Of a DNA stretch of 64,000 nt, positions 12,541 to 14,285 are shown piece by piece. The notes beneath the pieces are model-generated. The model saw only the letters and a list, made by a program, of their open reading frames with translations. It was not told the DNA's origin and did not search any database. Numbering within the stretch: the stretch's first letter is position 1; every line of letters begins with the position of its first letter. This stretch comes from Blastococcus sp. TF02A-30. GTDB lineage: Bacteria > Actinomycetota > Actinomycetes > Mycobacteriales > Geodermatophilaceae. The stretch is taken from NCBI RefSeq assembly GCF_003319185.1, contig NZ_QOHJ01000003.1, forward strand, positions 1 to 64,000. The letters run 5' to 3'. Both the position numbers and the translations under genes were made by a program.

Positions 12541-12613
12541 GCGCCATTAGCTCAATTGGCAGAGCAGCTGACTCTTAATCAGCGGGTTCGGGGTTCGAGT
12601 CCCTGATGGCGCA
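12541..12613 (+). tRNA. tRNA-Lys (CTT)
   Basis: 73-nt cloverleaf. Acceptor stem GCGCCAT / ATGGCGC plus discriminator A; D-arm AGCTCAATTGGCAGAGC; anticodon stem GCTGA / TCAGC with loop CTCTTAA giving anticodon CTT; T-arm CGGGGTTCGAGTCCCTG. CCA is not encoded. A possible -10 box TATCGT is at 12505-12510. A mutated copy of its 3' half lies at 14209-14245. Confidence 0.95.
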
Positions 12614-12614
12614 C
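12578..12614 (+). repeat. att-like direct repeat, tRNA copy
   Basis: The 37 nt from the anticodon 3' arm to just past the tRNA end match 14209-14245 at 33 positions. This is the segment typically duplicated when an element integrates at a tRNA gene; here it is the intact copy. Confidence 0.6.
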
Positions 12615-12631
12615 TCTGCACGATCCTGACC

Positions 12632-12659
12632 AGCGGCGATGTCCACGGACATCGCCGCT
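12632..12659 (+). terminator. tRNA-Lys terminator
   Basis: Perfect 13-bp inverted repeat AGCGGCGATGTCC / GGACATCGCCGCT with only 2 nt between arms (the innermost pairs must open), starting 18 nt after the tRNA and followed by TCGTCGTT. Confidence 0.8.
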
Positions 12660-12933
12660 TCGTCGTTCCCGGGGCGCTGCTCCCCACGCGCTCCCCCAGT
12701 TCGGGCGGTCGAGGGGCCTGCCACCGCCACGGCAGAGCCGGGACCACGCGGACAGCCGAGGCGGACGGCGCTGCGGACGCCGTCGAGGCGCAAGCCGCCA
12801 CCCCGCGCCGCAACCGAAGCGTCACCTCGCGCGCCCCGGCAACCACAGCCGCCACAGGCGTCACCCCGTCACGCAGAGCGCATGGTTCCCTCTTTTGAGT
12901 AACTACACCGCTGTAACCCGTTGGAGAGCTCCC
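12660..12933. other. Non-coding stretch between tRNA terminator and beta-helix gene
   Basis: No supported gene. Open frames here are Arg/Pro-rich and unconvincing. Near the right end, GGTTCCCTCTTTTGAGTAACTACAC is less GC-rich than its surroundings and may contain the promoter of the downstream gene; GGAGAG at 12923-12928 is its ribosome-binding site. Confidence 0.4.
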
Positions 12934-14166
12934 ATGCACCACGTCCCGTCCGTCCCGAGCCGCGAGGCGCGCGCCGCGGCGCAGTTCCGACGGGGCGACC
13001 GCTCCGGAGGCCGGCACGGCTTCCTCGCAGGGGTGGCCCTCACCCTGGCCGCCGTGGCGACGGTCGCAGCGCTCGCGGGGCCGTTCCCGGTGGCCTCGCC
13101 CGCACCCGACAGCCCGGCGCTCCTCGCCGGGGCCCGGACGACCGTCTCCGGCGCTGCCGGCTCGCACCCCGGGACCCCGGATCACGGAGCTCCGCCCGCC
13201 GGGGACGTCCCGTCGACCGCAGGGACGTCGCCCTCCGGCGCCCCGGCCGTCGCGGCCCCCGTCACCCCTGCGCCGGTAGCGCCCGCCCCGGCCACCTCCT
13301 CCGCCGACACGACCGGCGACCCCGCAGGCGACGAGCGACCCGATCCCTCGTCGAGCGATCCCACGGCGGGGGCGGTCGAGGTCGGGCCCGGAGGAGGCAC
13401 CGCAGCGCGGCTGGAGCAGGCCCTGGCCACCTCGCTCCTGGTGACGATGCCCCCGGGTGAGTACGTCTTCGAGCGCGCGCCGGTCCTCCCCGACAACGCC
13501 AGGATCGTCGGCGCGGGCAAGGCCCTGACGAAGTGGTTCCGCACCTTCGACGGCGACTTCGCCGTCCTGCCCGAGAGCGCAACCCTGGAGAACCTGGCCA
13601 TCCAGGGCCAGGGCGCGCAGTTCGGCGGCCGCGGTCTCGTCCTCACCGGCGACGACGGTCGCCAGGTGCTCGACAACGTGGCGGTCCTCGGCTTCGAGGG
13701 GTACTGCATCGACTTCGAGACCATCCACGCGGGGTCGCAGTTCCGCGCCGAGAAGCTCGACGTCGCCCGGTACAACGCCGACCCGACCGGCGACCGCTAC
13801 GCCGTCCACATGGCCGACGGGTTCCAGAACAGCGCGGTTCCCAGGAGCTTCTTCCAGGTCGAGACGCAGGGCTCGCCCTTCGCCTACCTCGGCGGCTCGA
13901 ACGACGTCTACGTCACCGCCTCGACCGTCGGCGGGATGCAGTTCACCGAGAACACCCGCGGCTTCCACCTCGGGGTGTCGCGCTGGCTCAACCAGCCGGC
14001 TGTCGAGATCCACGGCCACGGCATCACCGTGACGGGGGTCGGCATCCGGCCCGCGGTCACGATCATGCCCGGTGCTGACGACGTGCACTTCGACGGCAGC
14101 TACTTCAACGCCGGGGCCGTGGACAGGTCGGGTGCCGGCAACAACACCGGGCTGCCCGCTCGCTGA
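12934..14166 (+). CDS. Exported protein with Pro/Ser/Thr stalk and beta-helix domain
   Basis: 410 residues. An Arg-rich N terminus precedes a membrane/signal segment at ~34-55 (FLAGVALTLAAVATVAALAG), then a Pro/Ala/Ser/Thr-rich stalk to ~150, then a pectate-lyase-type right-handed beta-helix (TMPPGEYVF, NARIVGAGKALTK, ATLENLAIQGQGAQF, VTGVGIRPAVTI). This is typical of surface or cell-wall proteins that bind or cut polysaccharide; no catalytic residues can be named. I chose the ATG with GGAGAG 5 nt upstream over an in-frame TTG at 12895. The gene is the only cargo between tRNA-Lys and the decayed tRNA copy, so it may be acquired. Confidence 0.75.
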   Translation: MHHVPSVPSREARAAAQFRRGDRSGGRHGFLAGVALTLAAVATVAALAGPFPVASPAPDSPALLAGARTTVSGAAGSHPGTPDHGAPPAGDVPSTAGTSPSGAPAVAAPVTPAPVAPAPATSSADTTGDPAGDERPDPSSSDPTAGAVEVGPGGGTAARLEQALATSLLVTMPPGEYVFERAPVLPDNARIVGAGKALTKWFRTFDGDFAVLPESATLENLAIQGQGAQFGGRGLVLTGDDGRQVLDNVAVLGFEGYCIDFETIHAGSQFRAEKLDVARYNADPTGDRYAVHMADGFQNSAVPRSFFQVETQGSPFAYLGGSNDVYVTASTVGGMQFTENTRGFHLGVSRWLNQPAVEIHGHGITVTGVGIRPAVTIMPGADDVHFDGSYFNAGAVDRSGAGNNTGLPAR

Positions 14167-14208
14167 CACGTTCGCCGTCCACGGCCGACGTGGTGGTAGC
14201 GGCTCGTG

Positions 14209-14245
14209 ATCAGCGGGCTCGGGTCTCGAGTCCCTGACGGCGCAC
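14209..14245 (+). repeat. att-like direct repeat, decayed tRNA-Lys 3' half
   Basis: Matches tRNA-Lys 12578-12614 at 33 of 37 positions. The changes hit the T-arm (GGTTCGA becomes GTCTCGA, breaking a stem pair and the invariant GTTC), and the 5' half is absent, so it is not a working tRNA. Read as the displaced original 3' end left by integration at the tRNA gene. Confidence 0.65.
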
Positions 14246-14249
14246 CCTC

Positions 14250-14285
14250 CGACGCGGCCCGGTCCTCCTGGACCGGGCCGCGTCG
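14250..14285. terminator. Strong hairpin after the tRNA remnant
   Basis: Perfect 16-bp stem CGACGCGGCCCGGTCC / GGACCGGGCCGCGTCG with a TCCT loop. It lies between the beta-helix gene and the convergent channel gene. It may be the terminator that originally followed the tRNA, and it can serve both strands. Confidence 0.8.

Follow-up and report, generated by a model that had tools for sequence, protein, structure and literature searches.

A small insert at a Blastococcus tRNA-Lys gene is probably an eroded integrative element with one surviving gene for a predicted beta-helix protein

What separates a tRNA-Lys gene from a displaced copy of its own 3' half, and how did the intervening 1.6 kb come to lie there? 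The question is raised by one locus in a 64,000-nucleotide stretch of the genome of Blastococcus sp. TF02A-30, hereafter the window. A first-pass annotation, made from the sequence alone, had read the segment as a minimal or eroded genomic island whose integrase is gone. It had placed the tRNA-Lys(CTT) gene at 12541-12613, and both ARAGORN (12541-12614) and Rfam confirm an intact gene there, the sole match over gathering score in an Rfam scan of 12300-14400. The 74-nt tRNA sequence recurs identically in 47 of 97 genomes, its own genome counted. The locus is made up of the following features.

11183..12352, minus strand: left flank, an L,D-transpeptidase (YkuD/Big_10) gene with an upstream match in 40/40 relatives
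12541..12614, plus strand: intact tRNA-Lys(CTT) by ARAGORN (Rfam, 12541-12613, 69 bits)
12615..14202, no strand assigned: inserted segment, 1,588 bp, missing between the tRNA and the channel gene in relatives G009 and G022
12632..12659, plus strand: proximal hairpin, type A1, without a T-run, from folding against shuffles
12934..14166, plus strand: BH gene, an intact ORF for 410 aa with an N-terminal signal/anchor, a Pro/Ala/Ser/Thr-rich stalk (by eye) and a beta-helix
13372..14163, plus strand: beta-helix domain of the BH gene, 264 aa, with full-length homology to viral spike-like proteins and to a paralogue on contig C38
14203..14245, plus strand: displaced tRNA-Lys 3' remnant corresponding to tRNA positions 32-74 (37/43), T-arm broken
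14251..14284, plus strand: distal hairpin, type B, like hairpins in relatives, and most likely the original tRNA-Lys downstream hairpin
14307..16121, minus strand: right flank, a TrkA-N/ion-channel gene, found downstream of the tRNA or repeat in G009, G022, G010 and others

The remnant had been described as a 37-nt copy with 33/37 identities. We reproduced this figure for its last 37 nt and found that the match extends over 43 nt with 37 identities. Elsewhere in the window, no ungapped match of the 43-mer exceeds 26/43 on the plus strand or 24/43 on the minus strand, and the remnant is therefore not a product of chance. Its identity to the tRNA is unbroken only from position 38 onward, and the start at position 32 is weakly fixed because it rests on three matching bases past two mismatches; the repeats of G008, G010, G020, G113 and G123 likewise start at position 32, and the fragments at other tRNA-Lys inserts at 27, 30 or 37-39. 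The reported damage to the T-arm is real, as a G53-to-T change breaks the 53-61 pair and T54 is changed too. A whole-genome search with the tRNA part returned, among the matches listed, tRNA-Lys(TTT), tRNA-Asn and tRNA-Trp (40 of 520 candidates scored). The short string AGCGG/TAGCGG that precedes the remnant, G010's repeat and the nearer fragment of G047 was considered as a donor mark and rejected, because it comprises too few bases in GC-rich DNA.

Each end of the segment is accompanied by a stable hairpin. The proximal one (outer pairs extending to 12627-12665) folds at −26.8 kcal/mol (z −5.2 versus shuffles) and the distal one at −41.7 kcal/mol (z −5.8). The first-pass annotation had called the latter a second strong terminator; the strong hairpin stands, and the word terminator reflects position and recurrence, as both hairpins lack a T-run and a consensus terminator scan of 12400-14400 found none. 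Hairpins without a T-run can serve as terminators in such bacteria. We rejected the notion that the two hairpins are merely generic, given that the best matches to the proximal hairpin among 108 family genomes adjoin tRNA-Lys or its repeat (places read: G100, G014, G051, G028, G110 and G016; weaker matches lie elsewhere too). Type-B-like hairpins follow the tRNA in G001, G009, G019, G022, G033 and G097, and the repeat in G010. The types A1 and B were set by eye and mark lineages poorly because they grade into one another; the distal hairpin also matches those of G013, G018 and G038, which had been put in the other type.

To place the locus in context, we compared 40 relatives around the same tRNA, up to about 18 kb downstream and less in five. 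The YkuD match lies upstream of the tRNA in every one (about 1.2 kb away in G029), and the channel gene falls within the compared stretch in 6 of the 40. An arrangement shared by all relatives, which the first-pass annotation had named as speaking against an insertion, was not seen: the BH gene occurs near the tRNA in none of the 40 loci, over the distances just given, and its protein in none of 59 other genomes. Indeed, G009 and G022 have just the clean tRNA-Lys and hairpin, lacking the segment, that the annotation had proposed to look for. In these two genomes a hairpin resembling the distal one stands after the tRNA, with the channel gene about 50 and 130-150 bp further along. The remnant and distal hairpin of the window align together to this empty site with 84% identity over 87 nt in G009 (E 1.5e-21) and 82% over 98 nt in G022 (E 8e-19). 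G010 shows the same right border 27.7 kb from its tRNA, consisting of a perfect 43-nt repeat, a similar hairpin and the channel gene. The site is therefore occupied in the window and empty in species of the same genus, and the hairpin at 14250 is most likely original to the tRNA, as had been supposed, according to the G009 and G022 alignments and the G010 border. In all 13 relatives in which both ends were read (G001, G003, G008, G010, G049, G051, G053, G101, G112, G113, G123, G137 and G140), the fragment lies downstream on the strand of the tRNA, as integration predicts.

The tRNA-Lys site is a hot spot, with at least 19 same-contig inserts of 1.2-135 kb, the window included. We searched 62 family genomes outside the 40 relatives genome-wide to 3 mismatches; 57 of the 62 had a match, 13 had a further copy of the tRNA 3' part within that limit, and in 10 of these it lay on the same contig and strand. 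These ten genome-wide pairs, eight other relatives and the window, with one same-contig pair per genome, were used to relate repeat decay to insert size. For the eight relatives, pairs were taken among the matches listed, and decayed fragments may be missed there. The second fragment of G047 and fragments on other contigs or unread (G004, G020, G030, G043, G103, G109 and G111) were left out. Mismatches in the 35-nt core fall with rising insert length (Spearman −0.77, 4 of 20000 permutations, 19 inserts), under imperfect ascertainment, as a decayed fragment at a long distance is difficult to match with its tRNA. Removing the window gives −0.75, and restricting the test to the ten genome-wide pairs gives −0.85 (42 of 20000 permutations). 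Nine of the ten inserts of at least 8 kb have no mismatch and the tenth, G047, has one; among the nine shorter inserts, eight have 1 to 8 mismatches and G051 has none.

Two further arrangements were noted at this tRNA. In G053 and G107, an intact tRNA-Lys and a 3' repeat are separated by 135 and 132 kb within one contig and possibly bound very large islands. G085, from another family and outside the trend count (L012:1-1600), has a 58-nt perfect tRNA repeat 1.5 kb downstream, with some of the 3' flank repeated too; the region holds small ORFs, one of them perhaps a transposase piece by eye.

Integrases are found at the same site. Tyrosine integrases adjoin the tRNA in G051 (Pfam 2.1e-24) and in G003, there matching the C-terminal half of the profile (5.7e-14). 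In G008, and in G020, whose repeat and tRNA are on different contigs, one lies some 0.8 kb away from the repeat. The ORFs used as G008 and G020 integrase queries were probably in wrong frames (the G008 ORF is on the strand opposite to the integrase match), and results obtained with them say little. The 3.2-kb insert of G137 retains a C-terminal integrase piece beside the tRNA (phmmer 1.7e-30; 2.7e-30) and, judged by these matches, appears to be an erosion intermediate. Beside the integrases and the G137 piece, the length-decay trend is what progressive loss would look like.

G003 and G051 belong to two genera and have intact or nearly intact repeats. Their DNA past the tRNA is alike, both in the hairpin (44/50) and in the integrase gene (157/180), which is on the opposite strand and reads toward the tRNA. 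They provide a precedent for an insert that brings its own tRNA-Lys type hairpin; beyond the hairpin, the window is unlike them. As a separate observation, loci L071 (G051), L039 (G003) and L131 (G137) outline an element family in which the integrase ORF, on the antisense strand, crosses the tRNA-Lys hairpin and reaches into the 3' part of the tRNA. Elsewhere in the Blastococcus genome itself (G000:C11:557693-558448), an integrase match about 160 bp past the tRNA-Lys(TTT) match perhaps marks another island.

In the window segment we found neither an integrase nor an island backbone, and neither the BH gene nor five other ORFs or frames gave a Pfam match. The sole integrase-like match is that of the G051 integrase to the antisense of the tRNA and hairpin (12550-12642, 2e-10 with composition correction); with the correction on, 12666-14202 gave none. 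Integrase remains beyond the hairpin were considered and rejected, since a match running to 12798 without composition correction ends at 12642 with it, and the segment past the hairpin, searched alone, had no match.

Taken together, the empty and filled relatives, the repeat, the hot spot and the decay trend indicate that the window segment most likely goes back to an old integration at tRNA-Lys, eroded until one gene survived. The eroded-island reading of the first-pass annotation is thus supported, by the empty sites of G009 and G022, the G010 border and the fragment orientation. We consider it quite probable that an integrative element in tRNA-Lys(CTT) has eroded down to one gene, for a predicted coat-polysaccharide beta-helix. 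The element would have entered the 3' part of the tRNA in an ancestor of the strain, presumably through a tyrosine integrase. On its attachment site it would have carried its own copy of the tRNA 3' part and, behind this, a hairpin of the tRNA-Lys type. The tRNA would thereby have been remade at the left end, so that the 3' part of the present intact gene is presumably the copy brought in by the insert, and the host's own 3' part and hairpin would have been pushed to the right end. Piecewise loss, in a presumed order, would then have removed the integrase and backbone, and the displaced tRNA part would have drifted (6/43 changes) as one gene stayed open. The BH gene itself probably came in with the element.

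The left end adds a detail to the first-pass annotation. Past the window tRNA, the first 58 nt share 95% identity with the tRNA-Lys flank of G100, and a 59-nt stretch shares 90% with the corresponding flank of G014; the likeness to G100 stops right after the proximal hairpin. This hairpin, of a tRNA-Lys flank type known from other species, seems from these similarities to have arrived with the insert. It resembles the empty site of another species and not the left arms of the G008, G010, G020 and G047 islands, and the left end would stem either from another hairpin-carrying element or from another chromosome.

This left end, like a tRNA-Lys 3' flank and unlike the island arms compared, would also suit an insert that was never larger: a minimal single-gene cassette, itself without an integrase, whose circularisation and insertion relied on that of another element at the same tRNA, acting in trans. 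Integrases do lie beside tRNA-Lys in several relatives, and a comparable arrangement exists in G140, from another genus (L109:4165-5454), where the tRNA is followed by an A1-like hairpin (83%), a 1.2-kb insert, a tRNA 3' fragment with 1 mismatch in 35 and another hairpin. The G140 insert encodes one 161-aa orphan protein (4624-5109, plus strand) with a signal-like start by eye, which has no match in phage records or in Pfam. No G140 integrase was found by comparison with those of G051 and G003 or, by Pfam, in six ORFs tried. We nevertheless regard a cassette as unlikely for the window: short inserts tend toward decayed repeats and long ones do not, G137 appears to be an erosion intermediate, the cargoes of the window and G140 are unrelated by eye, and no circle was seen. 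Slightly less likely again is the general proposition that the tRNA-Lys of the family is also used by one-gene cassettes, each with an exported protein, a tRNA 3' part and a portable hairpin, and moved by integrases acting in trans. If true, single surface genes would be swapped between species at a tRNA, and the window and G140 would be two such cassettes.

Homologous recombination could have yielded a similar pattern by placing DNA of an A1 species, from the tRNA to the A1 hairpin, beside the right border of an island already present in a B species, or the reverse, so that the two ends would differ in history. The 95% identity to G100 over 58 nt, its abrupt stop after the hairpin and a distal hairpin of the G001/G009/G022 type are all consistent with such a hybrid. 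However, the upstream flank is not notably G100-like (YkuD 76.8% to G100 and 79.7% to G033), and hairpin types that grade are poor lineage markers. Moreover, the G003 and G051 elements, with their intact or nearly intact repeats, carry a host-like hairpin, so that one event explains the whole pattern; we therefore rate a hybrid as improbable. Chance resemblance or an unrelated tRNA fragment is refuted by the empty sites of G009 and G022 and can practically be dismissed in view of the 37/43 identities against 26/43, the orientation and the adjoining tRNA-Lys type hairpin.

With an eroded integration as the preferred reading, we turn to the gene that survived. The BH gene had been described as an exported stalk-plus-beta-helix gene. 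The one intact ORF is confirmed (410 aa for 12934-14166; a longer TTG-start form is also listed) and the beta-helix is predicted by modelling, whereas the signal, anchor and stalk are names given by eye, which we adopt as assumptions. The protein has no Pfam match, not reaching the curated cut-off of PF12708 (Pect-lyase_RHGA_epim), and matches PHROGs only at 0.02-0.05. The 410-aa protein was found in none of the phage and plasmid records, and neither it nor the paralogue in genome contigs searched with short exact peptide seeds, a search whose reach is limited to close relatives. A GTAAC-N9-GTAAC direct repeat just upstream of the gene (12897-12918) was considered as a regulatory box and rejected, because, with up to 3 mismatches allowed, the genome contains it just once.

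A codon-usage test, of the kind proposed in the first-pass annotation, proved weakly supportive of foreign origin, as the gene is only mildly odd: the whole BH gene ranks 5th lowest of 46 ORFs and the helix domain alone 11th, with GC3 of 0.93 and 0.95, respectively. Separately, ORFs at window positions 19409-21874, 32109-33470, 53184-53753 and 56648-57787 have low GC3 (about 0.8) and low codon adaptation; chosen mechanically, these four may be wrong frames or foreign genes. In a neutral simulation that ignores indels and rests on 6 changes, the ORF stayed open in about 5% of runs at 14% substitution and 36% at 5%, a weak hint that it may be under selection.

A structure model built from six sequences is a parallel beta-helix (pLDDT 87.6, pTM 0.86; a two-sequence model reached pLDDT 45). 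Its close folds comprise phage spikes and depolymerases (TSP2, 6w4q, Z 24.5), alginate epimerases (AlgE, 24.5), the biofilm lyase RbmB (22) and the streptococcal surface adhesin PfbA (Z 22.9). As PfbA, an adhesin, has this fold too, the model does not by itself point to an enzyme. Asp62 and Glu164 of the beta-helix domain, with codons at 13555 and 13861, are invariant across the six aligned rows.

The same genome encodes a 347-aa paralogue on contig C38, 48% identical over the helix domain. This protein matches PF12708 (5.2e-14, 53 bits against a cut-off of 27), and its Tat signal score is below the cut-off. At L079:6567-10419 (G000, contig C38), a Wzz-family gene, a membrane protein gene and the paralogue lie in a row. 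We take the membrane protein, which has no Pfam match over cut-off, to be Wzy-like by eye. This Wzy-like neighbour occurs in 3 of 108 family genomes, its own counted, and no beta-helix gene was seen in the 8 kb compared in each of the two others. Searched as a two-row profile, the helix domain matches in 2 of 112 family genomes, the second (G016) only partly, and in a scan of the phylum 6 of 396 genomes match at 1e-6, its own included, the other five only over the first part.

Within the scope of our short-pattern-seeded scans, domain-length relatives elsewhere are confined to four viral contigs. These IMG/VR contigs (L084/L130, L127, L128 and L129) encode spike-like proteins with 29-35% identity to the window protein over the whole helix domain; the L084 protein has a weak N-terminal Phage_T7_tail match below the cut-off, and the other three are spike-like by eye. 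Among named phages, the paralogue matches 38 of 50,697 records, none over 80% of its length and the best over 59% at 29% identity; its PHROG matches are tail-spike families and one family of unknown function (phrog_13144, 4e-13). The BH protein would most likely be a derived sister of the C38 protein behind the Wzz-type gene, related to phage tail spikes. The gene most likely encodes an exported, cell-tethered beta-helix that would bind or trim a polysaccharide of the cell's own coat.

The tail-spike-like fold recalls WceF of Pantoea stewartii, described in excerpts of PMC7949094 as a bacterial, exopolysaccharide-linked beta-helix shown to be a hydrolase and encoded in an exopolysaccharide synthesis cluster; WceF may be an analogue above all of the C38 paralogue. 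The model predicts a right-handed beta-helix for the BH protein as well (pLDDT 87.6), tail-spike-like by comparison with phage TSP2 (Z 24.5). In contrast to WceF, the BH gene is in a tRNA insert and not in a synthesis cluster, and only its paralogue stands behind a Wzz-family gene. With the viral L084/L127-L129 family, the BH protein shares homology over the whole helix domain, but by eye it has a signal/anchor and stalk instead.

The insert can likewise be set beside known integrations. In excerpts of the Islander report (PMC4383910), tRNA-borne islands are mapped between an intact tRNA and a same-strand 3' fragment at the opposite end, as in the window. Islander candidates without an integrase or under 2 kb are rejected, whereas the window insert has no integrase found within it and, at 1.6 kb, falls below the 2-200 kb range; it is hence not an Islander member, and cases like it fall outside that search. 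Integration is also described as leaving partial tRNA genes (PMC9897764, in extract), where a displaced tRNA fragment likewise marks the event, but the inserts named there measure roughly 9 kb and upward. Among Actinobacteria, integrating conjugative elements use the same kind of target, tRNA genes with tRNA-Lys among them, but were required to carry int, tra and rep genes (PMC3218068, in extract), none of which was found in the insert. In the general sense of a tRNA genomic island, relatives have the unoccupied site (G009 and G022), and the window insert works like the end state of such an island. In titles and the starts of abstracts, we found no tRNA island with a carried terminator, without an integrase or with a single gene.

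In summary, the insert is ordinary in kind and notable in detail. It looks like an island near the end of its erosion, and the empty, filled and half-eroded forms in relatives open the order of loss to study; inserts so small and without an integrase lie outside the filters of an island mapper as excerpted above. Our data also suggest that elements at tRNA-Lys can remake the downstream hairpin of the tRNA as well as its 3' end. By sequence comparison, the BH gene appears to be one of few cellular representatives of a viral spike-like family, and together with its paralogue behind a Wzz-type gene it lets one test whether bacteria keep spike-like domains for their own sugar coats.
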